Shown here piece by piece: positions 43,233 to 62,223 of a stretch of 64,000 bases of DNA (the stretch's first letter is position 1; every line of letters begins with the position of its first letter). A program made the translations under genes and the position numbers. The stretch is from Oscillospiraceae bacterium. Lineage in GTDB: Bacteria > Bacillota > Clostridia > Oscillospirales > Oscillospiraceae. Location: contig JAFUFT010000052.1 in assembly GCA_017469795.1 (NCBI GenBank), positions 1-64,000 of the forward strand. Direction: 5' to 3'. A model generated the notes under the pieces. That model made no database searches. It saw nothing but the letters and a program-made list of their open reading frames with translations, and was not told the origin of the DNA.

Positions 43233-43331
43233 TGAATACTCCTTTCTGCTGGCAAAGGCTTCTTGCTGTGAAGCCATTATACCGCTGAATCGAACCGCGC
43301 GGAAGACTCTTTTTTCAATTATGCCTTACTT

Positions 43332-45435: not shown

Positions 45436-46748
45436 GTCACGAACTTCAAAACATCCCGTTCTACTGGACAGCCCTGGCCCACTGGGCCACCTGTGTGATC
45501 TATCTGATCCCATACCCAAAACGATTCGCACGCTGGAAATCGATTCTCATTGACGGAGCCTATCTGATCCTCCTGATGGCTTATATGGCCCTCACAGCGC
45601 CGCAGAACGGCGGGCTGTTCAATGTGCTTATGGCCGGATTCGCGATTATGACAGCTACTCAGATCGCGGTGCTTTGCCCTGTGGATTTGCGGCAATTCCT
45701 GTATTATGGGGTACGGCTGTTTATGATCAGCGGTTTTACGGTCTCCCTGGCCTGGCAGCTTTATATTTATTATAAGCAGCAGATTCCCATTTTCTCCCTT
45801 CCGGTGGTGGAAGTGCTTTTGATGCTGCTCGTCTACGGCGCCGTTTACGGGATCATGATTTCGCTGGAACACCGTCAGAGTAAAGTCAATATGGAACTCC
45901 ACATCTCGTGGCCAACGTGTCTGAGCACTCTGGTGATTGGCGTGATGCTCTATATTCTCAGCAGCCTTAGTTTTTCCCGATTTGAAACACCTTTTGACGC
46001 CAGTACTTACGCTGAGGCATTTAATATCCGGACGCTTGTTTATTTCGGCGGTGTTGCGCTGTTCTATGCAGTTCACCTGCAGCTCTGTGAGATACATATC
46101 ATTTCAGAACGGGACGCACTGGAGAACATGCTGACTGCACAGTATAAGAGTTATCAGTTGGGGCAGGAGTCCGTAGACCTCATTAATCGCAAATACCACG
46201 ATCTCAAGCACCAGATCGCCGTACTCCGAAGCGGTATCGCAGCCGGCGAGAAGCTGGTATATCTGGACCGTCTGGAGCGGGAGATCCAGGTTTACGAGAC
46301 ACAGTTTAAGACCGGAAATCAGATTCTCGATACCATCCTTACCAGCAAAAGCATCCATTGCCAGCAAAATCAGATCGTACTGAGCTGTGTGGCTGACGGC
46401 AGCCTGCTGGGATTTATGGATATCGCCGATATCAGCGTGCTGTTCGGGAATGCCCTGGACAATGCCATTGAGGCCGTCAGCTCGATTGCAGATACAGAAC
46501 AGCGGTTGATCGACCTCTCCGTCAGTGCGCAGAAAGGATTTCTTTGGATCCGGGTCATCAACCGTTTTCAGGGGAAGGTCTCCATTCGAAACGGATTTCC
46601 GGTTACGACCAAAGGCGACTCAAAAAACCACGGATACGGAGTGAAAAGCATTGCGGCCACTGCGGAAAAGTACGGCGGAACAGCTACTGTCGAAACAAAA
46701 GCGGGCTGGTTTGAGTTGCGAGTCCTGATTCCTATGGCGCAATCCTGA
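45432..46748 (+). CDS. GHKL sensor histidine kinase (AgrC type)
   Basis: A 438-residue membrane kinase. About six hydrophobic segments fill residues 1-215. A linker helix leads to the histidine box NRKYHDLKHQ near residue 255. The ATP-binding GHKL part has the N-box LFGNALDNAIEAV and G-box HGYGVKSI. The topology resembles peptide-sensing AgrC kinases, but no agrB, agrD or precursor peptide gene is seen nearby. A terminator follows. Confidence 0.92.
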   Translation: MSHELQNIPFYWTALAHWATCVIYLIPYPKRFARWKSILIDGAYLILLMAYMALTAPQNGGLFNVLMAGFAIMTATQIAVLCPVDLRQFLYYGVRLFMISGFTVSLAWQLYIYYKQQIPIFSLPVVEVLLMLLVYGAVYGIMISLEHRQSKVNMELHISWPTCLSTLVIGVMLYILSSLSFSRFETPFDASTYAEAFNIRTLVYFGGVALFYAVHLQLCEIHIISERDALENMLTAQYKSYQLGQESVDLINRKYHDLKHQIAVLRSGIAAGEKLVYLDRLEREIQVYETQFKTGNQILDTILTSKSIHCQQNQIVLSCVADGSLLGFMDIADISVLFGNALDNAIEAVSSIADTEQRLIDLSVSAQKGFLWIRVINRFQGKVSIRNGFPVTTKGDSKNHGYGVKSIAATAEKYGGTATVETKAGWFELRVLIPMAQS

Positions 46749-46760
46749 ATCAATGATCGG

Positions 46761-46796
46761 TCACCGTCCACAGCAGTTGCCGTGGACGGTGATTTT
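46761..46796 (+). terminator. Terminator after the sensor kinase gene
   Basis: TCACCGTCCAC (46761-46771) pairs perfectly with 46782-46792, followed by TTTTG. Confidence 0.88.
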
Positions 46797-46808
46797 GTAT
46801 ATAGGAAC

Positions 46809-46823
46809 TGTGCAATCTGCACA
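46809..46823. promoter_or_regulatory. Operator-like palindrome before the glycoside operon
   Basis: TGTGCA-ATC-TGCACA is a perfect 15-base inverted repeat about 50 bases upstream of the -35 box of the GH2 promoter. The binding protein is unknown. Confidence 0.4.
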
Positions 46824-46872
46824 ATGATGAATACCGATTATGAAGAATTAGAGACGGATTATGCAAAAATGA

Positions 46873-46900
46873 TTGCAAAAAATACCATGGACGATACAAT
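46873..46900 (+). promoter_or_regulatory. Promoter of the glycoside operon
   Basis: TTGCAA (46873-46878) and TACAAT (46895-46900) are 16 bases apart, about 43 bases before the GH2 start. Confidence 0.6.
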
Positions 46901-46943
46901 AAAACCAAAGATTGGAGAAAAGCGCGTTCAAGGAGGGGAGACC

Positions 46944-49352
46944 ATGCAGAAAACTCCGATTTGCGACAATTGGCGGTTTCGAAAACTGGATGACAACGGT
47001 GTATGGACTACGGTCCGCCTGCCGCATGATGCAATGATTCTCGAGGCCCGAACAGAACAAAGCGCCGGCGGGATCAACACAGGATGGTTTGAGGGGTATG
47101 ATTACGAGTATGAACGCGTGCTGGATATTCCCGATTCTCTGCGGGGATCCCCCTTAATCCTGGAGTGCGAGGGTGTTTATCACAACGCCGAGGTTTGGCT
47201 CAACGGAGAAAAGCTGGCATTCCGGCCCTACGGATACACCAACTTCTATGTGGATCTTACCCAGCACCTGCAGTATGGCTCGGAAAACGTTCTGAAGATC
47301 ATAGCCCGAAATGCAGACCAGCCCAACAGCCGCTGGTATTCCGGCGCCGGACTGTATCGCCCGGTAAATCTGTGGACGGCGAAATCATCTGCTTATTTGC
47401 CTCCGAACGCCATCAAAGTCCGAACGATATCTTTGGACCCCGCAAAAATCGAGGTGACCGTTCAGACGGTGGGGAATGGCCCTGTACAGATCTCGATTTC
47501 CCGCAGTGAAAGAGTCCTCGGTTCTGTGACAAAGGAATCCCATGGCATTATATCCGCCGTGATTGAAATTGCACACGCAAAACTTTGGAGTCCACAATCA
47601 CCGGAGTTGTATCGCTGTCAGGTCTCCTTTGCAGACGATACTGCGGAAACGGCCTTCGGAATTCGTACCCTTGCCTGGAACACGGAACAAGGGCTGACGA
47701 TTAACGGCCGCAGAGAGATTCTACGGGGCGCCTGCATCCACCATGATAACGGAATCCTCGGAGCGGCGTGTTTCCCGGAGGCGGTGGAGCGAAAAGTACG
47801 GCTTCTTCAGGCCAACGGCTACAACGCCATCCGTTCGGCGCACAACCCCTGTTCCAAGACACTGCTGGATGTCTGCGACCGGCTGGGTATGCTCGTAATG
47901 GATGAATACATCGACCACTGGTACATTCATAAAACACAGCACGATTATGTCTCCTATTTCCCGGATTGGTGGCATCAGGATCTTTCTGATATGGTAGAGA
48001 AAGACTTCAATCATCCCTCGGTGATCCTGTACTCCACAGGAAACGAAGTCAGTGAAACTGCCCAGGAGAAGGGCATTGCACTGACCAAAGAACTGACGGA
48101 TTATCTGCATCGTCTGGACCCCACCAGGCCCGTGACCTGCGGCGTCAATATTTTCTTCAATTTCCTTTCCTCGGTGGGATTCGGCGTTTACAGCGATGAA
48201 AAGTCGAAAAAGGAGGCCGCTCAGGCGGAAAAACGCCGACAGGCCGGTAAATCAGAAAAGAAGAAAAAAGCCGTAGGAAGCCAGTTCTTCAACGATCTGG
48301 CAGGCCTGATGGGCGACAACTTCATGAAGGCCGGCGCAACACTTCATGGCTGCGACGTAAAAACCCGTGGCGCCTTTGCCAATATGGATATTGCCGGATA
48401 CAATTACGGGATTTTCCGTTATCAGCATGACCTGAAAAAATACCCGGAACGACTTATCCTCGGAAGCGAAACCTTCTGTTCGGATGCGTATGCATTCTGG
48501 GAGATGGCGCAGCGGGAACCCAGACTGATCGGCGACTTTGTCTGGGCGGGGATGGATTATCTTGGCGAAGTTGGCGTGGGTTCCTGGGAATACGGGGACT
48601 ATGCGCCGGAATTTGATCACGGTCCCGGGTGGATCACAGCCGGGAGCGGCCGAATTGACCTGACCGGTCACCCTCTGGCGGAGGCATCCTATACAAAGGT
48701 CGCGTTTGGCCTTACCGACGGGCCTGTAATTGCCGTGCGCCCGGTCAATCATACCCACGACAAGCATTCTCCCTCTGCGTGGAAAATGACCAACGCCATA
48801 GAATCCTGGAGCTGGCATGGGTGCGAAGGAGAAGACGCAGATATTGAAGTCTATACCAGAGCGCCTTTTATCGAGTTGTACCTGAACGGACACTCCTGCG
48901 GAAAGAAAAAGCGCGGGAAAAACTGCATCGTCTGTTTCCGGATCAAGTATGAACCCGGAGAACTGACTGCCGTCGCACTGGATCAGCAGGGAAATGAGAC
49001 CGCAAGAACCTGCTTGACGACCGCCGGGAATGAGACCGTTCTGCGTGCGATCCCGGAACTGCAGACTGCAAAACCGGACGGACTATGTTATGTCAACCTG
49101 GTCTATTCCGATACTGCAGGACAGGTCAAGCCTCTGGAGCGACACAGGATCCGCGTTCGCGTCGAAAACGGGACGCTGCTTGCATTGGGCAATGCCTGTC
49201 CCTACAATGCCGAGGGGTACGGACGCGAATATACGGATACCTATTGGGGAAGAGCGCTGGCGGTGGTTCGGGCAGATGGCGCCGGGCCGTTGACCCTTAC
49301 GGCGGATGATGGAGTGAGAACGCATACGGCAATTGTGCCGGTTGTGAAATAG
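46944..49352 (+). CDS. Glycoside hydrolase family 2 (beta-galactosidase/glucuronidase type)
   Basis: An 802-residue cytoplasmic enzyme. It has an N-terminal sugar-binding domain, an immunoglobulin-like domain (about 185-280) and a TIM-barrel catalytic domain (about 285-600). The acid/base Glu is in YSTGNEVSE near residue 372 and the nucleophile Glu in LGSETFCSD near 512. C-terminal domains follow. A Lys/Glu/Gln-rich insert, EKSKKEAAQAEKRRQAGKSE (about 419-438), interrupts the barrel. ATG 46944 has AGGAGGGG upstream; the frame is open for 54 earlier codons but these cover the promoter. The exact beta-glycoside is unknown; the rhamnosidase downstream suggests trimming of rhamnose-bearing glycosides. 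Confidence 0.9.
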   Translation: MQKTPICDNWRFRKLDDNGVWTTVRLPHDAMILEARTEQSAGGINTGWFEGYDYEYERVLDIPDSLRGSPLILECEGVYHNAEVWLNGEKLAFRPYGYTNFYVDLTQHLQYGSENVLKIIARNADQPNSRWYSGAGLYRPVNLWTAKSSAYLPPNAIKVRTISLDPAKIEVTVQTVGNGPVQISISRSERVLGSVTKESHGIISAVIEIAHAKLWSPQSPELYRCQVSFADDTAETAFGIRTLAWNTEQGLTINGRREILRGACIHHDNGILGAACFPEAVERKVRLLQANGYNAIRSAHNPCSKTLLDVCDRLGMLVMDEYIDHWYIHKTQHDYVSYFPDWWHQDLSDMVEKDFNHPSVILYSTGNEVSETAQEKGIALTKELTDYLHRLDPTRPVTCGVNIFFNFLSSVGFGVYSDEKSKKEAAQAEKRRQAGKSEKKKKAVGSQFFNDLAGLMGDNFMKAGATLHGCDVKTRGAFANMDIAGYNYGIFRYQHDLKKYPERLILGSETFCSDAYAFWEMAQREPRLIGDFVWAGMDYLGEVGVGSWEYGDYAPEFDHGPGWITAGSGRIDLTGHPLAEASYTKVAFGLTDGPVIAVRPVNHTHDKHSPSAWKMTNAIESWSWHGCEGEDADIEVYTRAPFIELYLNGHSCGKKKRGKNCIVCFRIKYEPGELTAVALDQQGNETARTCLTTAGNETVLRAIPELQTAKPDGLCYVNLVYSDTAGQVKPLERHRIRVRVENGTLLALGNACPYNAEGYGREYTDTYWGRALAVVRADGAGPLTLTADDGVRTHTAIVPVVK

Positions 49353-49366
49353 AGAGGAGGAATCAC

Positions 49367-51922
49367 ATGCTATCTGTTTCCCGTTTTACGGTGGAAGGAC
49401 TGGAAAAAGGCTGTGTCACAGATCAGCAGCATCCTCGGTTTTCCTATGCATTGGAATCTGACCGGGAAAATGTGACGCTGAAAAAGGTTGTGCTTACAGT
49501 CAACGGATGGACCGCGGAGACGGACAGCCAGATTGCGGTTTCCTATCAGGGGCCGCCGCTGGAGCCGTTCACAGGCTATACCGCTTCTATTACAGCCTGG
49601 GACGACGCAGGCGAGACAGCGCATGCAGATGTAGATTTTGAGACGGGACGGTTGGATCAGTCTTGGATCGGCAGATGGATCACTGATCCGGGATACTCCT
49701 TCACAGAGAAAAAGGTTTCGCCGGTTCCTCTTACGTTCCGGAAAAAACTGTCTGTCCATAGGCCAGTCGCGTCGGCAATAATTTACGCCACCGCACTCGG
49801 AATCTATGACCTCTATTTAAATGGCCATCGGGTAGGGGACCGCTATTTTGCGCCCGGGTTTACTTCCTACAAAAGCTGGCTCCAGTATCAGACCTATGAT
49901 GTGACGGATGCCCTTCAGGCCGAGGATACAATTACTGCAGTCGTGGCCGGTGGATGGGCGGTAGGATCCTTTGTATTTACACGGATCAACCGGCACGACG
50001 GCGACCGGCAGGCGCTGCTGCTGGAACTTCGCATCATGTATGAAGACGGCACGGAAGAAATCATCGGAACGGACGAAACCTGGGAAGTGACTCGGAACGG
50101 CAGTGTTCGTATGGCGGATATCTATGACGGCGAGACATACGACGCAACGGTGGATTTGGACCGGATCACATGGAACAATGCCGGCCTGGAAACCCTGCGA
50201 ATTCACCCGCAGATCCTGGCTGATTACGGTTCTCCGGTAAGAGCCCACGAAGAATTGCATCCGGTCAGCGTCAACATTGTCAACGGGATTCCGATCTATG
50301 ACTTCGGTCAGAATTTTGCCGGCGTGGTGAAGCTGAAAATCCGAAGCGGAACGAGCGGACAGAAAATCACCGTCCGTCATGCGGAGATTCTGAAACCGGA
50401 CGGAAGCCTGAACCTCGACTTTTTAAGAAGCGCAAAGGCAACCTATACCTACACCTGCACAGACGGAGAACAAACGGCTTCCCCGACGCTTTCCTATATG
50501 GGGTTCCGATATATCAGCGTGGAAGGCATTGATCCTGCGGATGTGGATGTCTCCGCATTGGCGCTTTATTCCGATTTGAATGCCGCAGGCAGTTTTTCCT
50601 GCTCCAGCGAGATGCTCAATCAGCTTCAGCACAACATCATCTGGGGCGCAAAATCCAATCTGCTGGATATTCCGACGGACTGCCCTCAGCGGGACGAACG
50701 AATGGGATGGACCGGCGATATCGCCGTATTTTCCCCGACAGCCTGCTTCAACTTTGAGATGAACCGGTTCCTGGAAAAGTGGCTGAAAGACGTGAGAGCG
50801 GAACAATACCGCGGCGGCGGCATCCCAAACACGGTGCCTGCCCAGGGGTATGGGTTCCCGGCCACGATGCCGCCCATGGCGGTTGACTGGTGGGATGATG
50901 CCTGTGTTTTGGTGCCGTGGGCGGAATACCAGGCCAGGGGAGACGTGGAGCTGCTCCGCAGTATGTATCCGACCATGAAGAAGTATATTAAAGCGTGCAG
51001 ATTCTGGGCTGGACTTCTGAGCTTCGGCAAGCACCGCTACATCTGGAACACGCCTGCTGTCCTCCACTTTGGAGACTGGGTGGCTCCGGATGTTCCGAAA
51101 ATGAGTCAGTGGCAGAGCCGCGCCAAGTGGACCGCGACCGCCTCGCTCTTCAATACTTCTTCCCACGTGGCCAGGATCGCAGAAATATTGGGAGAAAAGG
51201 AAGACGCGGCCTATTATCGGAATTTGAGTGAAAAAGTGGCTGATGCATACTGCTCGGTACTCACGGACGGCAACGGCAAGCTCCTTCAGGAATTCCAGAC
51301 CGGATATGTACTTCCGATCCACCTGAATATGTTCCCCACAAACGAAATCCGCCGCAAGGCTGCGAAAAATCTGGCAGCGCTGGTTGCGCGTAATGATTAC
51401 TGCATCGGCACCGGTTTCCCGGGAACGCCTTACATTCTCTTTGCACTGGCAGATAACGGGCAGGAGGAAACTGCATTCCGCATGCTCATGAACACAAAAT
51501 GCCCGTCCTGGCTCTATGAGGTAAAGATGGGCGCAACCACCATCTGGGAAAGATGGGACGGCCTCAACGAAAACGGGGAGTGCCCGATCGGTGACGACGG
51601 GACAGATACCATGATTTCCTATAACCACTATGCCTCCGGCGCGGTGGGAGATTTCCTCTATCGCCGAGTGGCCGGAATCGAACCCCTGGAGCCGGGATAC
51701 AAGCGATTCCAGGTCAAACCGCTTGTAGGAGGCGGCCTGACTCACGCAGAGGCAAGCGTCGAAACCCCCTTCGGCAAAGCATCCGCCGCATGGGAGACCA
51801 GGGATGACGGGATCGACCTGCGTGTGACTGTACCGGTGAACACCAGCTGCCGTGTAGTTCTTCCTGACGGGACAGAACAGACCGTAGGCAGCGGAGCTCA
51901 TATATTCAGCGGAAAACTGTAA
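49367..51922 (+). CDS. GH78 alpha-L-rhamnosidase
   Basis: An 851-residue enzyme that removes terminal alpha-L-rhamnose. The bacterial rhamnosidase N-terminal and concanavalin-like domains (about 1-400) precede the (alpha/alpha)6 catalytic domain (about 410-770) with DIPTDCPQRDERMGWTGD (read in parts; catalytic Glu in DERMGW) and the second Glu in TIWERWDG. A C-terminal beta domain ends the chain. There is no signal peptide, so it acts on imported substrates. It starts 14 bases after the GH2 stop, with GAGAGGAGG upstream. It is followed by a sugar symporter. Confidence 0.93.
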   Translation: MLSVSRFTVEGLEKGCVTDQQHPRFSYALESDRENVTLKKVVLTVNGWTAETDSQIAVSYQGPPLEPFTGYTASITAWDDAGETAHADVDFETGRLDQSWIGRWITDPGYSFTEKKVSPVPLTFRKKLSVHRPVASAIIYATALGIYDLYLNGHRVGDRYFAPGFTSYKSWLQYQTYDVTDALQAEDTITAVVAGGWAVGSFVFTRINRHDGDRQALLLELRIMYEDGTEEIIGTDETWEVTRNGSVRMADIYDGETYDATVDLDRITWNNAGLETLRIHPQILADYGSPVRAHEELHPVSVNIVNGIPIYDFGQNFAGVVKLKIRSGTSGQKITVRHAEILKPDGSLNLDFLRSAKATYTYTCTDGEQTASPTLSYMGFRYISVEGIDPADVDVSALALYSDLNAAGSFSCSSEMLNQLQHNIIWGAKSNLLDIPTDCPQRDERMGWTGDIAVFSPTACFNFEMNRFLEKWLKDVRAEQYRGGGIPNTVPAQGYGFPATMPPMAVDWWDDACVLVPWAEYQARGDVELLRSMYPTMKKYIKACRFWAGLLSFGKHRYIWNTPAVLHFGDWVAPDVPKMSQWQSRAKWTATASLFNTSSHVARIAEILGEKEDAAYYRNLSEKVADAYCSVLTDGNGKLLQEFQTGYVLPIHLNMFPTNEIRRKAAKNLAALVARNDYCIGTGFPGTPYILFALADNGQEETAFRMLMNTKCPSWLYEVKMGATTIWERWDGLNENGECPIGDDGTDTMISYNHYASGAVGDFLYRRVAGIEPLEPGYKRFQVKPLVGGGLTHAEASVETPFGKASAAWETRDDGIDLRVTVPVNTSCRVVLPDGTEQTVGSGAHIFSGKL

Positions 51923-51935
51923 AGGAGGAATGTAA

Positions 51936-53756
51936 ATGAGTCAAAAGGAAAACAAACAGGGGAGTTTTTTCGACAAGCTGCCCCCCAGCCTGATTCGGAA
52001 AAACAATGTGACCCTGATCCCCGAGGGTGCCATCGGATACCTGGTGGGACCCACTCTGGCGCTTCTTGCCAACTCCGTGCTGTCGAACTACTTCAACAAG
52101 TACATGTCCGACGTGCTGCACATCAACACCTGGGCATCGGCCTTCTTCACCTGGCTGCCCGTGATCTCCGTGATCTTCGTGGTCATAGGCAACATCCTGG
52201 TTGGCCGTCTTATGGACAACATCCGCTCGAAGAACGGCAAAGCAAGACCTCTTCTGATGGTCTCTGTGCCCATCAGCCTGCTGGCCCTGCTGTTCCTGTT
52301 CGTGTTCTCGCCCTATAATTCGACAAGTACATCCTGGCATACCGGCGCCCTCGTCTGCATTGCCATCGGCTACAACCTGTGGTTCGCCTTTGCCTATCCC
52401 ATGTACTATACCCCCCATGCGTCTCTGGTGAGCCTGTCCACCCGGAACAGCAAAGACCGGAGCCTGCTGGCCACCATCTCCAACGCGACGATGCTGGCAG
52501 CCATGGGACTTTCCAGCATGATCCTGCCTTTCTTCCTGAACCTGCTCTTCGTCTATGACATGAGCGGAATCGGCACCCCCGTTACCAATGACGCTGGCAA
52601 GATCCTCTACTATGTGGACGAGGCGGGGGCCGCCATCTATGACGCCCAGGCCTCCTACTCCCACTGGAAGATCTTTGTCATCGCCCTGATCATCATCACC
52701 TTTATCGGCGTCATGATCGAGTACTTCTTCACCCGGGAACGCATTACCGAGGAATCCATGGGCTCTGAGGACACCGAGACCAAGGCGGCCCTGCCCATCG
52801 GAGAGCAGGCGAAGATCTGCTTCAAGGACCGCTATTGGGTCATCATGATGGTATTCTTCTTCCTGTACCAGTTCGGCGGCATGATCAAGAACGTGTCCCA
52901 GAACTACTTCTGCACCGCCATGTTCGCCGACTCCATGGGCAACTACACCGTGGCCTACGGCGGACAGCTCCAGGGCACCCTGGCCATCATCGGCGCCATC
53001 CCCACCGCCATCGGCATGGTAATCGCCCTGCCCCTGGCCAATATCTTGGGCAGCAAGGGCAAGGCCATCCTGTCCGGCGCCATCGTGGCGGTCATCGGCG
53101 GCCTGATCGGTATGCTGAACCCCCACAACTTCGTGATCGTCACCATTTCCTTTATCATCAAGGCTCTGGGCTCCACCCCGGCCATGTACCTGTCCCTGGC
53201 CCTGCTGGCGGACATCTTCGACCACCAGGAGGCCATCCACGGGGTCCGCACCGACGGTCTTTCCATGACCATCTACGGCGCGATCATGGCGGGTATGACG
53301 GGCCTGACCACCGGCGTTCTGAACGCGGTCCTCAGCGCCGTCAACTATGACGTCTCCACCCTCCAGACCAACGAGGCCCTCCGGGCGGCCATGCCCTGGG
53401 TGTTCATCGGCGGCGAGACGATCTGCTACGCGGGTATCTTTATCATCTTCCTGATGATGGGCGTAGAGAAGTTCTCCAAGATTGACCATCTTGCCATCGT
53501 CTCCGACCAGAAGGCCGCTGCGGAAGCGGCGGGCACCGCCTTCATCTCCGCTGAGGAGAAGATCCGCATGGAGGAAGGCGAGGAGGCTTATGAGGCGGAG
53601 CTTAAGAAGCAGGCCGACGCAGCCGCCAAGGAGGAGGCTCGGGTCAAGGCTCTGTCTCCTGAGAAGCGCAAAGCCGAGGAAGATGCCTACGCAAAGCTCC
53701 TGACCGAGTTTAACGCGCTCCGTACCGCTAACGGCCGCCCCGAAATTAAGGCCTGA
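51936..53756 (+). CDS. GPH-family glycoside:cation symporter (MFS_2 type)
   Basis: A 606-residue membrane transporter with about 12 membrane segments over residues 20-510. Conserved loops include NILVGRLMDNIRSKNGKARP and SLVSLSTRNSKDRS. It probably imports the glycoside handled by the GH2 and GH78 enzymes. A cytoplasmic tail of about 95 residues (from EKFSKIDH onward), rich in Ala, Glu and Lys, is longer than in typical members and looks coiled. Codons end in G or C far more often than in the neighbours, which creates a long open frame on the other strand. AAAGGAGGAA precedes the start. Confidence 0.88.
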   Translation: MSQKENKQGSFFDKLPPSLIRKNNVTLIPEGAIGYLVGPTLALLANSVLSNYFNKYMSDVLHINTWASAFFTWLPVISVIFVVIGNILVGRLMDNIRSKNGKARPLLMVSVPISLLALLFLFVFSPYNSTSTSWHTGALVCIAIGYNLWFAFAYPMYYTPHASLVSLSTRNSKDRSLLATISNATMLAAMGLSSMILPFFLNLLFVYDMSGIGTPVTNDAGKILYYVDEAGAAIYDAQASYSHWKIFVIALIIITFIGVMIEYFFTRERITEESMGSEDTETKAALPIGEQAKICFKDRYWVIMMVFFFLYQFGGMIKNVSQNYFCTAMFADSMGNYTVAYGGQLQGTLAIIGAIPTAIGMVIALPLANILGSKGKAILSGAIVAVIGGLIGMLNPHNFVIVTISFIIKALGSTPAMYLSLALLADIFDHQEAIHGVRTDGLSMTIYGAIMAGMTGLTTGVLNAVLSAVNYDVSTLQTNEALRAAMPWVFIGGETICYAGIFIIFLMMGVEKFSKIDHLAIVSDQKAAAEAAGTAFISAEEKIRMEEGEEAYEAELKKQADAAAKEEARVKALSPEKRKAEEDAYAKLLTEFNALRTANGRPEIKA

Positions 53757-53771
53757 GTATTATATCATCTA

Positions 53772-53794
53772 CCTCCTCCCAAATCGGGAGGAGG
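53772..53794 (+). promoter_or_regulatory. Intercistronic hairpin between symporter and GH3
   Basis: CCTCCTCCC pairs perfectly with GGGAGGAGG around AAATC. No T-run follows, so RNA stabilisation of the upstream message is more likely than termination. Confidence 0.55.
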
Positions 53795-53828: not shown

Positions 53829-56800
53829 TTGAAAACAGACAACAAAAGCCGACGCCGGCAGCGCCTGTGGCGTGGACTGACGACGCTGACCGCTTCGGTG
53901 CTGGCTCTTGCTGTAGCCGGTTCATCCATCGTCAATGGATTCCGCACAGACATTGACAAATTCCTCGGAACCTCCAGCTCCCGCGTTGTCACAGAAGATG
54001 CGGATCCTGCCGACATCTACACCTACGCTTCCGATTACAGCAGCACGACAGAACTCGTCAATGCGATCGCCGATGTGGGCGAGCGTATGAGCGAAGAGGG
54101 AACTGTCTTGCTGAAGAACAACGGAGCGCTTCCGCTTTCCGCTGACGAAAAGGGAAAGATCTCCCTGCTGGGATTCTCCAGCTATAATCCCTGTGTCGGC
54201 GGCGTCATGGGTTCGAGCCTGACTCCCGCCATGGGAACGGAAGCTGATACGGTTGACTTTGTCGGCGCGCTTGCCGCTCGCGGCTTTACCATCAACAGTA
54301 CCCTGGCGGATATGTATGCGGCGCTGCTGCCCACCTATCAGACCGAAGTCCAGAGCTGGGGCGGCACCATTACCTACAGCACCATCACTGCCCCTGCCAA
54401 CTCTGACGGCAGCGTCTTTACAAGCAAGGAACCCTCTCAGACCGCGCTGGACGGCGCCAACGGCGGCTGGAAAGACTCGATGAACGACTATAACGTCATG
54501 ATCGTGACCATCGCCCGCGCCGGATCTGAGAACGCCAACTATACGCCCGGACAGGCAGGCGTGGATCCCTCTCAGAACCTGAATCAGACCGATCCTCTCG
54601 GCCTCAGCGATGACGAGCGGGATCTGATCCAGACGGCGATCGATCAGAAGGCGTCCAACGGCGGCAAGGTCATCGTCCTTCTGAACAATGCCTCCGCCAT
54701 GGAGGTTCAGGAGCTTGAAGACAACGAGGGCATTGACGCCATGCTGCAGATCGGTCTGCCCGGCGGCTACGGCTTCTACGGCATCTGCGACATCCTCGAC
54801 GGTACTGTCAACCCCTCCGGCCATCTCAGCGATACTTACGCTGTGAAAAATGAGCTTTCTCCCGCCGCGCAGAACTACGGCTTCCTCATGTGGGCCAACG
54901 CGCAGCCTGACCGCAACATCAACAGCGCCATTGTGGAAGCTGAGGGCATCTACACCGGCTACAAGTACTATGAGACCCGTTACGCCGATACTGTACTTGG
55001 ACAGGGCAATGCGGACTCGGATGTCGGTTCTGTTGGCGGCGCCTGGAATTATGACAATGAAGTCACCTATCCGTTCGGCTACGGCCTGAGCTATACCACC
55101 TTTACCCAGACCCTTGACAGCGTGAATGTGGATCTTGCGGCAAAGACTGCAACGGCAACCGTTACCGTCACCAACACCGGTTCTGTTGCCGGTAAGGATG
55201 CGGTTCAGCTCTATGTTTCCGTTCCCTACACGGATTATGACCGGGAGAACGGCGTGGAGAAATCTGCGATCCAGCTGCTGGACTTTGCCAAGACCGGCGA
55301 CATCGCCCCCGGGGCCTCCGAGAGTGTGACGATCACCGCGGATCTTACCTACATGGCTTCCTGGGACTCCACGGCTCCCAATGCCGCAGGCACTGCCGGC
55401 AACTATATTCTGGATCCCGGCACCTATTATTTCTCCGTAGGCAACGCGCATGAGGCGGTGAATAACGTTCTGGCTGCCCAGGGTACGGCGGCAGAAGGCG
55501 ACGCTGCCAATGTGCAGACCTGGGAACTGGCGGAAATGGACACCACCACCTTTGCCCAGACCAAAAACGGCACCAATGTGGAAAACCAGCTTGCTGACAT
55601 GGATGTCAACTACTGGCTGCCCGGCACGGTCACCTATCTCAGCCGTTCCGACTGGGCAGGCACCTTCCCCAAGACCGTTTCCGGCCTGACCGCCACCGAC
55701 GAGATGCTCAACATCATGGGCAACGACAACTACCAGATGCAGTCTACCGGTTCCGACGTGACCTTCGGCGCCGACAACGGCCTTTCCCTTGCAGCTCTGA
55801 AGGGCGTTACCGATCTCAACGATGAGCGCTGGGGACTGCTGATGGATCAGATCAATCTGGAAGACGCCATGATCCGGACCGGCTTCGGCGGCACTTCCAC
55901 CAAAGCCATCGAGTCCATCATGAGCCCTGAAGCGATCCAGAATGATGGTCCCAACGGCATTTATTCCTACCCCCTGGGTCAGTATGCCAATACCAACAAG
56001 GAATCCGGCGACCCCTGCGCCATTGACGCGAATGATCCCAACGCCGGGTATCAGGCCGGCGTCATGGGCAATGAAACGATCATCGCTCAGACCTTCAACA
56101 AGAATCTGGTGGAGGAATACGGTGAAGTCATGGGCAACTATTCCCTGTGGTCCAATCTGACCATTTGGTGGGGAATTGGTGTGAATATCCACCGCTGCCC
56201 CTATAACGCCCGGAACCATGAGTACTATTCAGAAGACTCTGTCCTGTCCGCTTTCCTCGGCGCTAAGACCATTGAAGGCGCTCAGAAATACGGCGTGATC
56301 GCTGCGCCGAAGCACATCGCGTTCAACGATTCCGAAGTGAACCGGACCGGCGTTGCCACATTTATGACGGAGCAGAAGGCCCGTGAGGGTGAGCTCCGCG
56401 CCATGCAGGCGTCCATCGAGGATGCAAAGGCGCTGGGAGCCATGACGGCGTATAACCGCGTCGGCGTGTATACCGACAACGCGCATCCCACGCTCCTGAA
56501 GAACATCGTTCGCGGTGAGTGGGGCTTCCAGGGCCTGATGAGCGAGGACTTCATCATGGATCCCAGCTATGTGACCCTGAAGGAGGCCGTGCTGAACGGC
56601 GTCACCATGTCCTGCAATACCGGTGAGAGCACCATGGCTGCTGTGTCCGGATACTATCCCTACTGGACGGTGGAGAACGTGCAGAACGATCCGGAGCTTA
56701 CCGCCGCACTGAAGCAGGCCATGACCTGGCAGGCCTATGCCCTGGCAAACTCCAACGCCATGGACGGCTATGCATCCTCTACCCGTATCGAGAAGGTCCG

Positions 56801-56903
56801 CACCTGGTACGACAACGCTCTGACCGGCGTCGCTATCGTGTTTGCACTTTTGACGCTGCTCAACGTTGTGATGTACTTCAAAGCCCGCAAGAAAGAAGAC
56901 TAA
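53829..56903 (+). CDS. Membrane-anchored GH3 beta-glycosidase with permuted domain order
   Basis: A 1024-residue protein starting with TTG after AAGGAGGAG. A basic N-terminus and membrane segment (about 19-40) lead to the GH3 C-type domain (starting VGERMSEEGTVLLKNNGALP), which ends with YPFGYGLSYTTF near residue 425. A fibronectin-III-like domain follows (to about 525). The GH3 N-type catalytic barrel comes last (about 610-970), with KHIAFNDSEVNRTG and GFQGLMSEDF; the Asp of SED is the expected nucleophile. A second membrane segment and KARKKED tail close the chain. Both ends can anchor it in the membrane. The order is reversed relative to common GH3 enzymes but known in some rumen Clostridia. 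Confidence 0.9.
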   Translation: MKTDNKSRRRQRLWRGLTTLTASVLALAVAGSSIVNGFRTDIDKFLGTSSSRVVTEDADPADIYTYASDYSSTTELVNAIADVGERMSEEGTVLLKNNGALPLSADEKGKISLLGFSSYNPCVGGVMGSSLTPAMGTEADTVDFVGALAARGFTINSTLADMYAALLPTYQTEVQSWGGTITYSTITAPANSDGSVFTSKEPSQTALDGANGGWKDSMNDYNVMIVTIARAGSENANYTPGQAGVDPSQNLNQTDPLGLSDDERDLIQTAIDQKASNGGKVIVLLNNASAMEVQELEDNEGIDAMLQIGLPGGYGFYGICDILDGTVNPSGHLSDTYAVKNELSPAAQNYGFLMWANAQPDRNINSAIVEAEGIYTGYKYYETRYADTVLGQGNADSDVGSVGGAWNYDNEVTYPFGYGLSYTTFTQTLDSVNVDLAAKTATATVTVTNTGSVAGKDAVQLYVSVPYTDYDRENGVEKSAIQLLDFAKTGDIAPGASESVTITADLTYMASWDSTAPNAAGTAGNYILDPGTYYFSVGNAHEAVNNVLAAQGTAAEGDAANVQTWELAEMDTTTFAQTKNGTNVENQLADMDVNYWLPGTVTYLSRSDWAGTFPKTVSGLTATDEMLNIMGNDNYQMQSTGSDVTFGADNGLSLAALKGVTDLNDERWGLLMDQINLEDAMIRTGFGGTSTKAIESIMSPEAIQNDGPNGIYSYPLGQYANTNKESGDPCAIDANDPNAGYQAGVMGNETIIAQTFNKNLVEEYGEVMGNYSLWSNLTIWWGIGVNIHRCPYNARNHEYYSEDSVLSAFLGAKTIEGAQKYGVIAAPKHIAFNDSEVNRTGVATFMTEQKAREGELRAMQASIEDAKALGAMTAYNRVGVYTDNAHPTLLKNIVRGEWGFQGLMSEDFIMDPSYVTLKEAVLNGVTMSCNTGESTMAAVSGYYPYWTVENVQNDPELTAALKQAMTWQAYALANSNAMDGYASSTRIEKVRTWYDNALTGVAIVFALLTLLNVVMYFKARKKED

Positions 56904-56918
56904 GGAGGAGAAGGTATT

Positions 56919-57347
56919 ATGGATAGAAAGAAATCCGTTGGCCTCTATATTGCGGCTCTGTCCGTGATCCTGGCGCTGGTGGGCATGATCGCGTATCTGA
57001 TGAACACCAGAACCAACTATTATGCGAAGATGGGTGTGGACAGCACGGTACTGCTCTGCCTGATCGCAGCCATTGTTCTGACCGTTGTCCGCATTCTCAT
57101 CGGCCTGAAGGGAACTCCCATGATCGCGGATATCCTTCCGGTCTGTGCAGCAGCAGTGCTGACGATCGGCCTTGTGATGCTGCTCAACGTGCGGATCAAT
57201 AATCTGGCCGCTGTATTCACCTTTGAGAACAGCGCTGCCAATATGGCCGACACCACATCCTGCATCATCGCGATTGCAGGGTGCCTGTTGGCGGTGATCT
57301 TCAGCATCATCAGCGCATTCTTTGACATCACAAAGGCAAAAGCGTAA
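56919..57347 (+). CDS. Small four-helix membrane protein linked to the GH3 enzyme
   Basis: A 142-residue protein with four predicted membrane segments (about 8-28, 42-62, 70-90, 112-135) and short basic loops. I do not recognise a named family. It starts 15 bases after the GH3 stop with AAGGAGGAGAAGG upstream, so it is made together with that enzyme and may help place or stabilise it. There are no catalytic motifs. Confidence 0.75.
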   Translation: MDRKKSVGLYIAALSVILALVGMIAYLMNTRTNYYAKMGVDSTVLLCLIAAIVLTVVRILIGLKGTPMIADILPVCAAAVLTIGLVMLLNVRINNLAAVFTFENSAANMADTTSCIIAIAGCLLAVIFSIISAFFDITKAKA

Positions 57348-57432: not shown

Positions 57433-59217
57433 ATGCGCCGTTTCACTGCGTTGATTCTGTCCCTGCTTTTGCTTTTGTCCGGATGTGCTTCTTCCGGGCA
57501 GGATCGGCCCGATTCCGTTTGCAGGGTCGTTCTCGAGGAAGGGGAGGGCTTCACGGCTCAGGCGTATGTGCAGGAAACGGAATACGGCGGAAGCATCCGT
57601 TTCGAGCTGCATGAACAAGACGGATACCGGATCGAAGGTTCGGATGCTCCGGACGCAACACTGACCCGGGACCTCAGCGGCATTCATCTCGACCTTCCTG
57701 ATGTCAAATACACAGAGGTAGTCCGGCTCGCCGTGAGAAAAAGCGATGCGGTGCTGCGTTATCATGCAGCCGGCGGGATCCGTCTCGACGGAGGCAACCC
57801 GGACGAGCCGGTGGAGGTCCCGGTTACGCCCTCGCACCTTCGCCTGAACACATCTCCTGGAACGGACCTGTTCCATCGGGATGGTTATACCCTGATCGGA
57901 TGGAATACGAAAATTGACGGAAGCGGGACGGAAATCGGCCTTGGAAGCCGCGTTGATCCAAAGGACAGGCGGATCCTCTACGCACAGTGGAGAAAATGGA
58001 CGGACGCTTCTTCTTTTGACTGGGAAGCAGAGGGGACAGGAATCTGTATAACAGGCTATCACGGATCTGTTCCATCGATCGTCATCCCTTCCATGCTGGA
58101 CGGAAAGCCGGTCTTGCGTATCGGCAACGGCGCATTCGCAAACGTCCACTGTACAGAGGTGATCCTCCCGGAAACGCTGATTACGCTGGAGGATGGAGCC
58201 ATGGAGGGATGCACGCTTCAGGCTCTTTGGCTGTTTGACAGTATACGTGAAATCAGCGACTACGGGTTCTCTGACTGTCGGGAGCTTCAGACGCTGCATA
58301 TCAACGCTGCGATTCCTCCTGTGTACAGCGGCACCTATTACGCCGCTTTCCCGGACAAGCTGGATCGTCTGATCACTTTGCGGGACAGGCAGAAAATCGT
58401 ACTGTTTTCCGGATCCTCCACACGCTTTGGATACGACAGCGGCAAGATCGACGAGGCTTTTCCGGATTACGAAGTCGTCAACATGGGCGTTTTTGCCTAC
58501 ACGAACACTTTGCCGCAGTTTGAGATCATGCTTGCCTGCATGAAGGAAGGAGATATCCTGATCCATTCACCGGAGTTCGACGCCGCTCAGCGGCAGTTCT
58601 GCACCAGCAGCAATCTGGACGCGGCGTTTTTCAATATGGTCGAGTGTAATTATGATGCAGTTTCCATGCTGGATCTCCGGAATTACGGGCAGATCTTCAC
58701 GCCCTTTCATTCATTCCTGGTTTCGAGGGACGGAATGCCGCCCACAAGCTACGGACTTTCTCCAGGAGATTTTGATGAGGACGGCAATCCGGTCAATACC
58801 AGAAGCTATAATGCGTACGGAGATTATATTCTGTACCGTCCGAATTCCCCGGAAGACACACCGATCTATGGACTTCCTGTAAAATACACACCGGAAGCCA
58901 TTCCGTCTGATTCATTTATTCAGCCGCTCAACAGCGTCTACCGGCTGTTTCTTGACCGGGGTATCCGCGTCTACATGACATATTCTCCAAGGAACAAGCT
59001 GGCCGTATCCGACGATACCACGCCTGATTCGATCCGTGCACTGGACCGCCATCTGCGCGATAATCTGTGTGTTCCCGTGATCTCAGATATCGAAGGATCT
59101 CTGGTCAGCGGCAGATACCTCTACGGCACAGACAACCATCTTTCCACAGAAGGCGTTGCCATCCGAACAAGTCAGATCATCGATGATCTGAAATCCCAGT
59201 TGTCTCAGGAGGAGTAG
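57433..59217 (+). CDS. Lipoprotein with leucine-rich repeats and SGNH-hydrolase-like domain
   Basis: A 594-residue lipoprotein with lipobox LLSGC (Cys17). The middle contains an InlB-type repeat (FHRDGYTLIGWNTKIDGSGTE in parts, ending LYAQW) near 145-190. BspA-type leucine-rich repeats follow (about 195-300), with IPSMLDGKPVLRIGNGAFA. The C-terminal part has an SGNH/AlgX-DltD-like shape: the block-I-like LFSGSSTRFGYDS (Ser near 322) and the catalytic DxxH-like TDNHLSTEG near 565. With the MBOAT gene two positions on, an envelope O-acylation role is inferred. AAAGGAGGG precedes ATG. The polymer acylated is unknown. Confidence 0.75.
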   Translation: MRRFTALILSLLLLLSGCASSGQDRPDSVCRVVLEEGEGFTAQAYVQETEYGGSIRFELHEQDGYRIEGSDAPDATLTRDLSGIHLDLPDVKYTEVVRLAVRKSDAVLRYHAAGGIRLDGGNPDEPVEVPVTPSHLRLNTSPGTDLFHRDGYTLIGWNTKIDGSGTEIGLGSRVDPKDRRILYAQWRKWTDASSFDWEAEGTGICITGYHGSVPSIVIPSMLDGKPVLRIGNGAFANVHCTEVILPETLITLEDGAMEGCTLQALWLFDSIREISDYGFSDCRELQTLHINAAIPPVYSGTYYAAFPDKLDRLITLRDRQKIVLFSGSSTRFGYDSGKIDEAFPDYEVVNMGVFAYTNTLPQFEIMLACMKEGDILIHSPEFDAAQRQFCTSSNLDAAFFNMVECNYDAVSMLDLRNYGQIFTPFHSFLVSRDGMPPTSYGLSPGDFDEDGNPVNTRSYNAYGDYILYRPNSPEDTPIYGLPVKYTPEAIPSDSFIQPLNSVYRLFLDRGIRVYMTYSPRNKLAVSDDTTPDSIRALDRHLRDNLCVPVISDIEGSLVSGRYLYGTDNHLSTEGVAIRTSQIIDDLKSQLSQEE

Positions 59218-59218
59218 C

Positions 59219-59458
59219 ATGAGAAATACCATCATATTCCTGCTGTTCGGCGCTGCATGCCTGTCCCTTGTTCTGCACATGTTCCTTCGCCGGGGAAAGA
59301 CGTTCTTGGCCATTTTCTCCGAGCTCATGACGGCGGCAGGCTTGCTCACAGGACTGGCTCTGGGATTCAGCCTGGAGAACCTGGCGGTTCCGGTTGTGCT
59401 TCTTGCGGGAATCAGCCTGCTCCCATTCCTCCGAAAGGAGGGCGGCGATGAACTTTAA
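59219..59458 (+). CDS. Small membrane protein between SGNH lipoprotein and MBOAT
   Basis: A 79-residue protein with three hydrophobic segments (about 3-20, 27-48, 54-70) separated by short charged turns such as RRGK. No named family is recognised. Its ATG lies one base after the SGNH stop and its end overlaps the MBOAT start by 11 bases, so the four genes are tightly coupled. Confidence 0.7.
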   Translation: MRNTIIFLLFGAACLSLVLHMFLRRGKTFLAIFSELMTAAGLLTGLALGFSLENLAVPVVLLAGISLLPFLRKEGGDEL

Positions 59459-60809
59459 TACACTGGAATATCTTCTGTTTCTGCCTTTGATCTGTTTGGG
59501 GTACTGGCTTCTCCCGCAGAAGGTCCGCTGGATTTGGCTTTTGCTCGGCAGCTGGCTGTTTTATTTCTGGTGGGACCCCCGGGCGGGGGCTCTACTGATC
59601 GGCACAACGGCCGTCACCTGGTTTTGCGCCGGACAGATCGGAAAGACGCAGGCGCGGGCAGGGAAGCGGCTTTGGATGCTTATTGCACTCGGGACCACCC
59701 TTGCCGTCCTTGCGGTGTTCAAGTATGCCGGATTCCTGGCCTCGCTGATCGGAGCATCCCTCACGGTCCGTATCATGCTTCCTGTCGGCATCTCCTTTTA
59801 CACGTTTCAGACACTCAGCTATGTGCTGGACGTTTACCGGGGAACGATCTCGCCGGAACCGCATTTCGGTTATTACGCGCTGTTCATCTCCTTTTTCCCG
59901 CAGCTTGTGGCCGGGCCCATTGAACGAACGGAGCATCTGCTTCCCCAGCTCAAACAGCCTGCGGCCCGGGATCCGGTGAAATTCCGTCATGGGTTCTGGC
60001 TTCTGCTGACGGGTTTTTTTAAGAAAATCGTCATTGCCGACTCTCTCGCTCCCTATGTGGATCAGGTGTTTGGCAATCCGAGCCAGGCCGCCGGTGTGGA
60101 TGTTGTTCTGGCCGTATTCCTGTTCGGTATCCAAATCTACTGCGACTTTTCGGGTTATACGGACATTGCCCGCGGAAGCGCCGCGCTTTTGGGCGTCGAC
60201 CTGATGGAGAATTTCAACCGGCCTTACTCCGCAGTATCGATCCGGGATTTCTGGAGGCGGTGGCATATCAGCCTGACCCGATGGTTCACGGATTATGTAT
60301 ATATTCCCTTGGGTGGAAACAGGAGCGGACTGCGCCGCCAGATCCTTTCCGTTATGATCGTGTTTCTGCTGAGCGGCTTGTGGCACGGTGCCGGGTGGAA
60401 TTTCGTGGCGTGGGGCGCAATTCATGGCCTTTTCCTGTGTGTCGGGCTTCTTTGGACATCCAGGCACACGACGGCACACACGACACCGGGAAGGCTGCGG
60501 AGGGTACGAACCTGCATCCTTGTCAATTTCGCATGGCTCTTTTTCCGTGCAGGTACCCTCCGGGATGCCATATTCATGTTTTCCAGATTATCAGTGCCGG
60601 GTTTTGGTTTTCAGATGCGGGATCTGGCTCAGATCGGTCTTACGGTGCTGTGCTGTGTGATGATAGATCCGGCACGGGATCGATGCAGCCGGCGTACACA
60701 GCGTACAGCCGTTTTGGCTGGGTTCTATATGCTCGCGGCCATTGCCGTCGTTTGGCTGAGGATGCTCTCGGGAGGTGATCAGAATGCGTTCATCTACTTC
60801 CAGTTCTAA
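59448..60809 (+). CDS. MBOAT family O-acyltransferase
   Basis: A 453-residue polytopic membrane acyltransferase of the DltB/AlgI/PatA type. It begins NTLEYLLFLPLICLGYWLLP and carries SFYTFQTLSYVLDVYRG, FFPQLVAGPIER, RDFWRRWHISLTRWFTDYVY and the catalytic His in GLWHGAGWNF near residue 323. Such proteins pass acyl groups across the membrane to extracellular polymers with the help of SGNH proteins. ATG 59448 is selected by GAAAGGAGG; an earlier in-frame start lacks this. It overlaps the next gene by 26 bases. Confidence 0.93.
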   Translation: MNFNTLEYLLFLPLICLGYWLLPQKVRWIWLLLGSWLFYFWWDPRAGALLIGTTAVTWFCAGQIGKTQARAGKRLWMLIALGTTLAVLAVFKYAGFLASLIGASLTVRIMLPVGISFYTFQTLSYVLDVYRGTISPEPHFGYYALFISFFPQLVAGPIERTEHLLPQLKQPAARDPVKFRHGFWLLLTGFFKKIVIADSLAPYVDQVFGNPSQAAGVDVVLAVFLFGIQIYCDFSGYTDIARGSAALLGVDLMENFNRPYSAVSIRDFWRRWHISLTRWFTDYVYIPLGGNRSGLRRQILSVMIVFLLSGLWHGAGWNFVAWGAIHGLFLCVGLLWTSRHTTAHTTPGRLRRVRTCILVNFAWLFFRAGTLRDAIFMFSRLSVPGFGFQMRDLAQIGLTVLCCVMIDPARDRCSRRTQRTAVLAGFYMLAAIAVVWLRMLSGGDQNAFIYFQF

Positions 60810-62223
60810 CGCTTCCGGAGGCAGGCTCCTGAAAGCATGGTCCATTGCCTTGATCCTCCTCGTCCCGCTTTGTCTCCTTGTCTGGGGATTTGCACTTCCG
60901 TGTCAGTATCACGATACATTTATGGGTGAACTGAAATACAAGGTTCAGCGGCTGGAGGAAACCCCGGGGCCCCGGATCGTTCTGATCGGAGGGAGCAGCG
61001 CCGCTTTCTCGGTTGACAGCGCAGCGCTGGAGCGGGAATTCCCGGAATATTCCGTGGTAAACTTCGGAATGTATGCCGCACTGGGCACCACGGTAATGCT
61101 GGATCTGGCGGAACCCAGGATCCGGGAGGGTGACATTGTCATTCTGCTTCCGGAGCAAACCGAGCAGACGCTTTCCGGCTACTTTGACGCTTCTGTCATG
61201 TGGCAGGGTCTTGACGGTGCTTTTTCCTTGATCGGAGACCTTCCCAGGGACAAACGGAAAGCCCTGTTGAGCACATTTCCCGCATTTGCTGGACAAAAGC
61301 TGTCCTATTCGATCAGCGGTTCATCTCCTGTGCCTCCCGGCGTATACGCCAGATCCTCCTTCAATGAATACGGCGATGTGGAATCGCCCCTTTGCGTCAG
61401 GAACGAGATGCCGGGCGGATATGATGAAAATACACGAATCCGATTTGATGCCGATATCATAAGTACAGACTTTATTGAGCGGATCAACCGTTTTACAGAG
61501 GCGGCACAGGAAAACGGTGCCGAATGCTGGTATATACTCTGTCCGGTCAACCGCTCTGCCGTATACGGGGAAGCAACCCCGGAGGATTTTTATCAGACAC
61601 TCCGTCAGTCCATCGCGTGTCCGCTGATTGGGAATCCGAACGACAGCGTTATGGATCCCGGCTGGTTCTTCGACACCAATTTTCATTTGAATTCCAGCGG
61701 AAAACTGCTGTATACCCGCGCTCTTGCTGATGGCATCAAGGCCATGCTCGGAGACTGCAGTCCATCGGAGATCCAGATTCCAGGCATGCCGGAACCTGCT
61801 GAAATCGAGCTATGGGAGGGAAACGACCGGGATGCCGATTGTTTCCTTTATGAACGAAACAGCGACACATGGTCCATTGTGGGCCTCACAGACCAAGGCA
61901 GAAGCAGAAGCGCTCTGATCATTCCATCCACTTGTCAGAGCCTTCCGGTACGAACCATACAGAAAGGCGCTCTTTCCGGCAGCATGGCCAAAGAAATTGT
62001 GATACAGCAGAACATACGTTCCGTGATCGACGGAGCATTTGAAGGATGTGATTTCCTCGATCGTATCGTAATGGAGCAGGAAACCCCATCCCTTTGCAGG
62101 GTGGGGCAGGACCTGCTTCTCGGAACCCGGGCGGTTGTCTATGTACCGGAGGATAGCTTTCCCGCTTACCGCAGCGATTATTTCTGGTCCATCCATGGGC
62201 AGGATATTCAGCCTGAAAGATAA
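60784..62223 (+). CDS. Membrane-anchored SGNH-like protein with C-terminal LRR-like region
   Basis: A 479-residue protein. A Ser-rich N-terminus and one membrane anchor (about 18-40) are followed by an extracellular SGNH-like domain: VLIGGSSAAFSVDSAALE (Ser near 70) and the candidate D-N-F-H motif in FFDTNFHLNSSGK near 300. The last 150 residues resemble the BspA-type repeat (SALIIPSTCQSLPVRTIQ, IRSVIDGAFEGC). It is thus a second, differently ordered combination of the same two modules as the lipoprotein upstream. ATG 60784 has GGAGG eight bases upstream, inside the MBOAT gene. A strong terminator follows. Confidence 0.75.
   Translation: MRSSTSSSNASGGRLLKAWSIALILLVPLCLLVWGFALPCQYHDTFMGELKYKVQRLEETPGPRIVLIGGSSAAFSVDSAALEREFPEYSVVNFGMYAALGTTVMLDLAEPRIREGDIVILLPEQTEQTLSGYFDASVMWQGLDGAFSLIGDLPRDKRKALLSTFPAFAGQKLSYSISGSSPVPPGVYARSSFNEYGDVESPLCVRNEMPGGYDENTRIRFDADIISTDFIERINRFTEAAQENGAECWYILCPVNRSAVYGEATPEDFYQTLRQSIACPLIGNPNDSVMDPGWFFDTNFHLNSSGKLLYTRALADGIKAMLGDCSPSEIQIPGMPEPAEIELWEGNDRDADCFLYERNSDTWSIVGLTDQGRSRSALIIPSTCQSLPVRTIQKGALSGSMAKEIVIQQNIRSVIDGAFEGCDFLDRIVMEQETPSLCRVGQDLLLGTRAVVYVPEDSFPAYRSDYFWSIHGQDIQPER

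Follow-up and report, generated by a model that had tools for sequence, protein, structure and literature searches.

A permuted GH3 glycosidase with conserved hydrophobic ends and a conserved four-TM partner gene suggests a membrane-bound unit for sugar digestion not described before

The window analysed here is a stretch of 64,000 nucleotides from an Oscillospiraceae bacterium, and the features considered in it lie on one strand: genes for a GH2 glycosidase, a GH78 rhamnosidase and a GPH-type transporter, followed by a GH3 enzyme and a small membrane protein without a known family, referred to below as the partner (Table 1).

Table 1. Features of the locus, their positions in the window and the evidence for each.
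Feature	Position	Strand	Basis
GH2 glycosidase, no signal peptide by eye	46782..49352	+	Pfam; upstream in 13/61 loci
GH78 alpha-L-rhamnosidase, no signal peptide by eye	49367..51922	+	PF17389, E 1.3e-102; upstream in 47/62 loci with enough sequence
GPH/MFS_2 sugar transporter, conserved neighbour	51936..53756	+	PF13347, E 3.6e-46; upstream in at least 40/66 loci (matches running into the GH3 frame excluded)
Permuted GH3, predicted exo-beta-glycosidase, 1024 aa	53829..56903	+	TTG start; Pfam, phmmer, AlphaFold2, structure match
N-terminal hydrophobic helix, residues 6-37, with RGL at 15-17 on the probable cytoplasmic side	53844..53939	+	Hydropathy, AlphaFold2
Glu234, proposed acid/base	54528..54530	+	E in 104/105 relatives
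Asp907, nucleophile by alignment	56547..56549	+	Aligned with Asp709 of 5k6l and Asp242 of TnBgl3B; D in 105/105 relatives
C-terminal membrane helix (predicted), residues 993-1021, Trp993 at the outer end	56805..56891	+	Hydropathy, AlphaFold2
15-base gap with Shine-Dalgarno-like GGAGGAG	56904..56918	+	Sequence
Four-TM partner, 142 aa, without known family	56919..57347	+	ATG start; hydropathy, AlphaFold2, locus pairing

The GH3 reading frame encodes a permuted member of its family. Pfam places GH3_C (residues 92-422) first, an Fn3-like domain (458-539) second and GH3_N (748-912) last, so the domains are permuted (sandwich, FnIII, barrel), as an earlier note on this DNA had claimed in setting the C-type domain ahead of the N-type barrel. 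The N and C domains score 61.6 and 69.4 bits against curated cut-offs of 27 and 31. The AlphaFold2 model, built on a 53-row alignment, has a pLDDT of 92.3 and a pTM of 0.91, and among the 50 structural matches listed only permuted GH3 crystal structures share its full-length fold: six rows at Z 34.3-34.6 with 728-741 residues aligned, 5wvp being the top one (Z 34.6, 733 aligned). The remaining 44 rows align over at most 297 residues, and the best non-permuted match reaches Z 18.0 over 285.

The catalytic residues were compared across 105 relatives, 83 followed by a partner gene and 22 not. In phmmer alignments to 2x40 and 5k6l, Asp907 pairs with Asp242 and Asp709, respectively, both named as nucleophiles (PMC11233000), and aspartate is retained in 83/83 partnered and 22/22 partnerless relatives; a missing or altered nucleophile was rejected on these grounds. 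The earlier note was right about the letters of the loop, SED (in full G-L-M-S-E-D-F), but reading them as a change at the nucleophile is not supported; by alignment the motif is a substitution of the nucleophile's neighbour (ED for SD) with the nucleophile itself unchanged. Glu906 stands where 2x40 and 5k6l have a preceding Ser or Thr; at this position partnered relatives carry E in 55 of 83 cases and T in 24, and partnerless ones T in 21 of 22. Among residues of subsite -1, K828, H829, R839 and R795 are invariant in all 105 relatives and D706 is kept in 94. We matched the proposed acid/base, Glu234, to Glu143 of GlyA1 through the motif R-x-x-x-E; phmmer, in a gap-free alignment, does not place the two opposite each other. 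Judged from these residues, the GH3 active site is intact.

The second gene is as the earlier note described it, a 142-residue four-helix protein starting 15 bases after the GH3, and both its coordinates and its four hydrophobic segments were borne out. AlphaFold2 predicts four long helices (pLDDT 93.4) with short loops, the model containing no cytoplasmic domain. Four residues are conserved in at least 90% of members (G8, Y26, N29 and R92); N29 lies at the outer end of helix 1 and R92 just past the hydrophobic stretch 71-89. For the window protein, no Pfam-A match rose above its curated cut-off (best Cap15_TM, 16.5 bits against 28.2) and NCBIfam gave no match; the best E-values for the other 67 members, taken as E-values only and without cut-offs, went down to 2.8e-5 in Pfam and 5.2e-4 in NCBIfam. 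The weak Pfam matches of the window protein (Cap15_TM 0.014, DUF996 0.38), as well as those among the 68 members (DUF7937 in 14, best 2.8e-5; TssN in 7, best 5e-4), were judged to be chance. The partner profile found nothing better than E 0.12 among PDB sequences, and fold searches returned helical-bundle matches only (best Foldseek E 0.083). Claudin/TARP-type proteins are likewise four-TM bundles (VIA Z 11.4-12.3, within the helical-bundle noise stated for the tool), but we saw no sequence relation to them, and the likeness is one of analogy only. TARPs have both ends inside the cell and act as auxiliary subunits.

The pairing on which the earlier note had built recurs widely. Within 79 loci, kept from the best 80 of 349 stretches encoding a relative, a profile made from the downstream ORFs detects a partner after the GH3 gene in 75, an arrangement that is therefore not due to chance; in the other four (L037, L051, L057 and L079) the contig stops inside the GH3 gene or less than 60 bases past it. 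As this profile was seeded from those same loci, less circular tests were added. The window partner alone (tblastn, E 1e-10) recovers 65 of the 75 loci and has matches in 8 of 200 genomes of the family, one of them its own. The 68-row partner profile has 24 places in 15 of these 200 genomes, and 21 of them adjoin a permuted GH3; the unpaired ones are G164:C27 (seen as L118/L172), an orphan gene whose 11.4-kb contig yielded no GH3, G091:C37, which is a truncated remnant, and G130, a weak match judged false. Among the 21 paired places, one GH3 is broken (G186:C62, whose contig is also that of L083, one of the 75 loci) and one is a fragment (L105).

Agreement was also close in 18 whole genomes, selected for holding such loci, where 29 of 31 partner matches lie downstream of a GH3 match and within 130 bases of its end. 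The two unpaired matches are weak and partial (E 1.9e-4 and 9.9e-4), and among partner matches new to the analysis 11 of 13 are paired. From the enzyme's side, the profile detects a partner for 28 of the 29 GH3 matches that score above 820 bits, and the remaining one (G612:C44) is followed by a diverged four-helix ORF instead; among the weaker matches, just one, at 799 bits, has a partner that the profile picks up. Across 398 genomes of the phylum, the GH3 profile at E 1e-100 found only the window's own genome, an absence that is not firm since at most two candidates were scored in the genomes listed; the partner profile found the same genome and three partial matches (E 1.3e-4 to 6.2e-4), none of them less than 1.5 kb from a GH3. 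Bifidobacterium, Alloscardovia, Enterococcus, Natronobacillus and an Anaerolineaceae MAG are among the sources of the loci. The pair is shared by distantly related bacteria from the gut and the environment.

The distribution of the partner was mapped on a tree of 108 GH3s (from 137 rows, 122 of them full length, after removal of near copies). Of these, 83 are partnered (78 by profile, 5 by hydropathy with at least three segments), 22 are partnerless (the same strand carrying no ORF of this kind within 250 bases) and 3 were not judged. Presence and absence require a single change on the FastTree topology, a quick tree with long branches; when the 22 partnerless rows were shuffled, the mean was 20.1 changes and none of 500 trials came as low as the observed value. 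The diverged proteins encoded downstream, eight in number, were compared with the partner profile in hhalign and match it at 97.7% (E 1.4e-12, 133 columns), against below 1% for all 18 control TM slices. Outside the tree, 2 of 14 downstream stretches hold a diverged four-TM-like ORF. The four-TM partner marks one large branch of these permuted GH3s.

The membrane segments that had been predicted at both ends of the enzyme were confirmed by hydropathy (residues 17-35 at 1.82 and 997-1015 at 2.37) and by the terminal helices of the AlphaFold2 model. They are conserved: the C-terminal segment, the second one looked for in homologues, scores at least 1.6 in 105 of 105 relatives, and the N-terminal one at least 1.5 in 95 of 103 (74/81 partnered, 21/22 partnerless). 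Over the 83 partnered rows the mean net charge is +5.0 before and -0.4 after the N-terminal helix, and -0.4 before and +2.6 after the C-terminal one. Since the positive flanks face the chain ends and the near-neutral ones the body, the GH3 termini are probably cytoplasmic and the catalytic body outside. Partnerless enzymes retain anchors at both ends, with two N-terminal segments in 5 of the 22 (and in L166, whose partner state was not judged). As the tree contains partnerless enzymes with the same anchors (22), the partner would not be required for anchoring as such, and double anchoring looks like a wider trait than the four-TM partner.

A simpler topology, in which the N-terminal segment serves as a signal peptide and is cut off and the partner binds the remaining C-terminal helix or aids export or insertion, appears unlikely, although parts of the evidence accommodate it. 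Anchoring by the C-terminus only is common for Gram-positive surface enzymes. The N-terminal hydrophobicity is moderate, with a median of 1.82 in the partnered branch against 2.73 in partnerless enzymes; this gap reflects one transition, so it is not independent evidence, and the lower value is compatible both with a helix packed in a bundle and with cleavage. Position 31 holds A or G in 49 of 53 sequences, and the window protein reads A-V-A-G. On the other hand, residues 36-52 are conserved (0.74) like the catalytic core (0.72), residues 10-37 (0.56) exceed residues 1-9 (0.41), and the N-terminal helices of partnerless enzymes are strongly hydrophobic and sometimes doubled. The RGL motif is also conserved: in diverged partnered relatives R15 is found in 22, G16 in 23 and L17 in 20 of 26, against K (11), I (8) and L (5) as the commonest residues at these positions in the 22 partnerless enzymes. 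Both RGL and Trp993 stand out among the diverged partnered enzymes, which is not the case in partnerless ones. A retained N-terminal anchor would be the reading more in keeping with these features.

The two anchors can be placed relative to each other through TnBgl3B, which is unpermuted. The structural match pairs GH3 residue 981, where the barrel ends, with residue 313 of TnBgl3B, and residue 80 (the start of the sandwich) falls near residue 324, by way of a weak 10.9-bit phmmer segment holding V-L-L-K-N. As these points are neighbours in a chain of the ordinary order, both anchors should emerge at one place. We infer that the permutation opened the chain at the barrel-sandwich linker, and a two-legged stalk rising from a single point is the more likely geometry; the suggestion in the earlier note that double anchoring holds the enzyme flat on the membrane is, with one exit point, unlikely.

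The neighbouring genes bear on the substrate. Neither GH78 nor GH2 has a visible signal peptide, leaving the GH3 as the sole enzyme of the operon that looks extracellular (signal peptides being judged by eye). Further neighbours are an LRR/SGNH-like protein downstream in 40 of 67 loci, a second such protein in 33 of 55, and an MBOAT in 32 of 62. The GH78 and its neighbours suggest a rhamnose-bearing glycoside as the substrate, probably of plant origin. Digestion at the cell surface before import, proposed in the earlier note, fits the charge flanks, the upstream GPH transporter and the apparently cytoplasmic GH78. Overall, the earlier interpretation stands as to the anchored ends, the partner pairing and cell-bound digestion, and gives way as to the flat placement and any reading of SED as an altered nucleophile.

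Taken together, we lean towards a membrane glycosidase unit encoded by two genes, in which an exo-glycosidase bound to the cell is docked on a membrane subunit of its own, and hold this with modest confidence. Hydropathy and charge would set the N- and C-terminal helices of the GH3 in the cytoplasmic membrane with the catalytic body outside, and the alignment would have both helices leave the body at about one point, side by side. The four-TM protein may pack on this pair of helices and serve as a dedicated docking subunit, helping the enzyme to assemble, keeping it stable or setting it in place. From its GH3 residues, the enzyme would be expected to act on a glycoside at the cell surface and release a terminal beta-linked sugar. 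At the window locus, the GPH transporter next to the pair may then import the product, leaving the last steps inside the cell to GH78 and GH2.

The contact itself was probed by covariation between the GH3 and the partner (mutual information, 88 pairs, effective depth 54, a weak test), which gave no excess for the membrane helices: among the 60 highest-ranking column pairs between the two proteins, 2 fall in the GH3 end segments against 6.1 expected. As far as a weak test goes, this counts against contact. The one orphan partner gene, G164:C27, also speaks against the unit. The physical complex is proposed from the conserved pairing and the predicted topology.

The partner might instead be a channel or permease for the sugar released by the GH3, coupling hydrolysis to import. 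Such a role would suit its four confidently predicted helices and its pairing with an outside-facing hydrolase, and several partnerless relatives are followed, by eye, by a GPH-like gene; it is nevertheless improbable, as a GPH transporter already lies upstream of the pair in the window and in many other loci (Table 1) and none of the four most conserved residues is a mid-membrane charge. That the partner senses or regulates sugar at the GH3 and signals to a nearby GHKL kinase and LytTR regulator is very improbable: these genes occur upstream in 29 and 22 of 61 loci, respectively, and more occur downstream, but the remaining loci have neither on the upstream side and the predicted four-helix protein offers no cytoplasmic domain.

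Known permuted GH3s share the enzyme part of this arrangement. GlyA1 (PDB 5k6l-5k6o), the founder of the permuted subfamily (PMC5104943), resembles the window enzyme in the order of its domains and in its fold over the full length (Z 34.3-34.6, 27% identity), and shares with it the nucleophile and most residues of subsite -1; in the parts of that paper available to us, the main text contains neither "transmembrane" nor "signal peptide" and, in contrast to the window locus, no membrane partner is mentioned. BrGH3A of the bovine rumen has the same permuted order in 814 residues, is stated to lack a signal peptide and was proposed to be intracellular (PMC11233000). The Paenibacillus barengoltzii beta-glucosidase (5wug, 5wvp), named as a permuted GH3 in the same article (PMC11233000), is the joint best structural match, the comparison being by structure and sequence only. 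As far as their accessible text goes, PMC5104943 and PMC11233000 describe permuted GH3s without membrane helices or a partner, and PMC8990778, PMC11170127 and PMC6965361 do not describe the pair; among the titles and abstract openings listed from the open-licence PMC literature, no doubly anchored permuted GH3 or partner appeared.

The pair suggests a membrane-bound unit for digesting sugars of a kind not yet described. We further propose, tentatively and with more doubt than belief, that the permutation is the structural basis of integral-membrane glycosidase complexes: the joined ends would form a two-helix stalk, and one branch would have recruited a four-TM subunit, yielding a six-helix module that hands surface sugar to import. 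A large doubly anchored GH3 branch with an obligate-looking membrane partner would suggest why the GH3 was permuted, and the partner would be a further protein family, one whose role can be tested. The pair would also give a handle on surface glycoside digestion by Gram-positive gut bacteria; at the bench, the soluble part of the GH3 expressed alone would miss the partner.

Upstream of the GH3 gene lies a strong hairpin (z -3.5). Its arm, CCTCCTCC, was found in 0 of 16 relatives when compared as a sequence string only, and a conserved structure ahead of the GH3 is possible: L018 and L074 show, by eye, different inverted repeats at the same site.

In 16 of the 22 permuted GH3s with no four-TM partner gene downstream, the C-terminal helix has an Asp at the position aligned with residue 1002 of the window enzyme; this Asp might keep the anchors of these enzymes together, substituting for the partner. 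Two N-terminal hydrophobic segments were found in the permuted GH3s of five related loci (L003, L144, L145, L168 and L171), and likewise in that of L166, whose partner status was not judged.

Some partner proteins (L017, L137 and L133, see table) have five hydrophobic segments instead of four and continue well beyond them at the C-terminus. This long extension is perhaps a sugar-binding arm; in L133 it gave no domain match. An orphan partner gene (133 aa; L118/L172) lies on contig G164:C27, where no GH3 was found, and its neighbors are a LytTR-like regulator and kinase-like and oxidoreductase-like ORFs.

Features of the window and of extended partner proteins at related loci
Feature	Locus	Positions	Remarks
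Phage-type integrase	window	42015-43277	minus strand; upstream of sugar operon
LytTR response regulator, GHKL sensor kinase	window	44722-46748	upstream of GH3 pair
Hairpin	window	53772-53794	transporter-GH3 gap; arms CCTCCTCCC/GGGAGGAGG, nine base pairs
Cluster downstream of GH3 pair	window	57433-62223	lipoprotein-like protein, MBOAT acyltransferase, second LRR/SGNH-like protein
Extended partner protein	L017	1486-3417	lipocalin-like, sub-threshold match
Extended partner protein	L137	4468-5916	Big_3 Ig-like, 39.4 bits (cut-off 21.2)
Extended partner protein	L133	4535-5530	

The downstream cluster looks like a surface O-acetylation system, and 52 to 60% of the loci with enough sequence retain it close to the GH3 pair. 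Its first gene product, the lipoprotein-like protein, contains an LRR_5 region and what read as SGNH-like motifs, for which no family match was obtained.

The hairpin preceding the GH3 gene has a z of -3.5, and this particular sequence was absent from the 16 relatives compared. The agr-like LytTR/GHKL genes flank the GH3 pair across many loci, either upstream or downstream.
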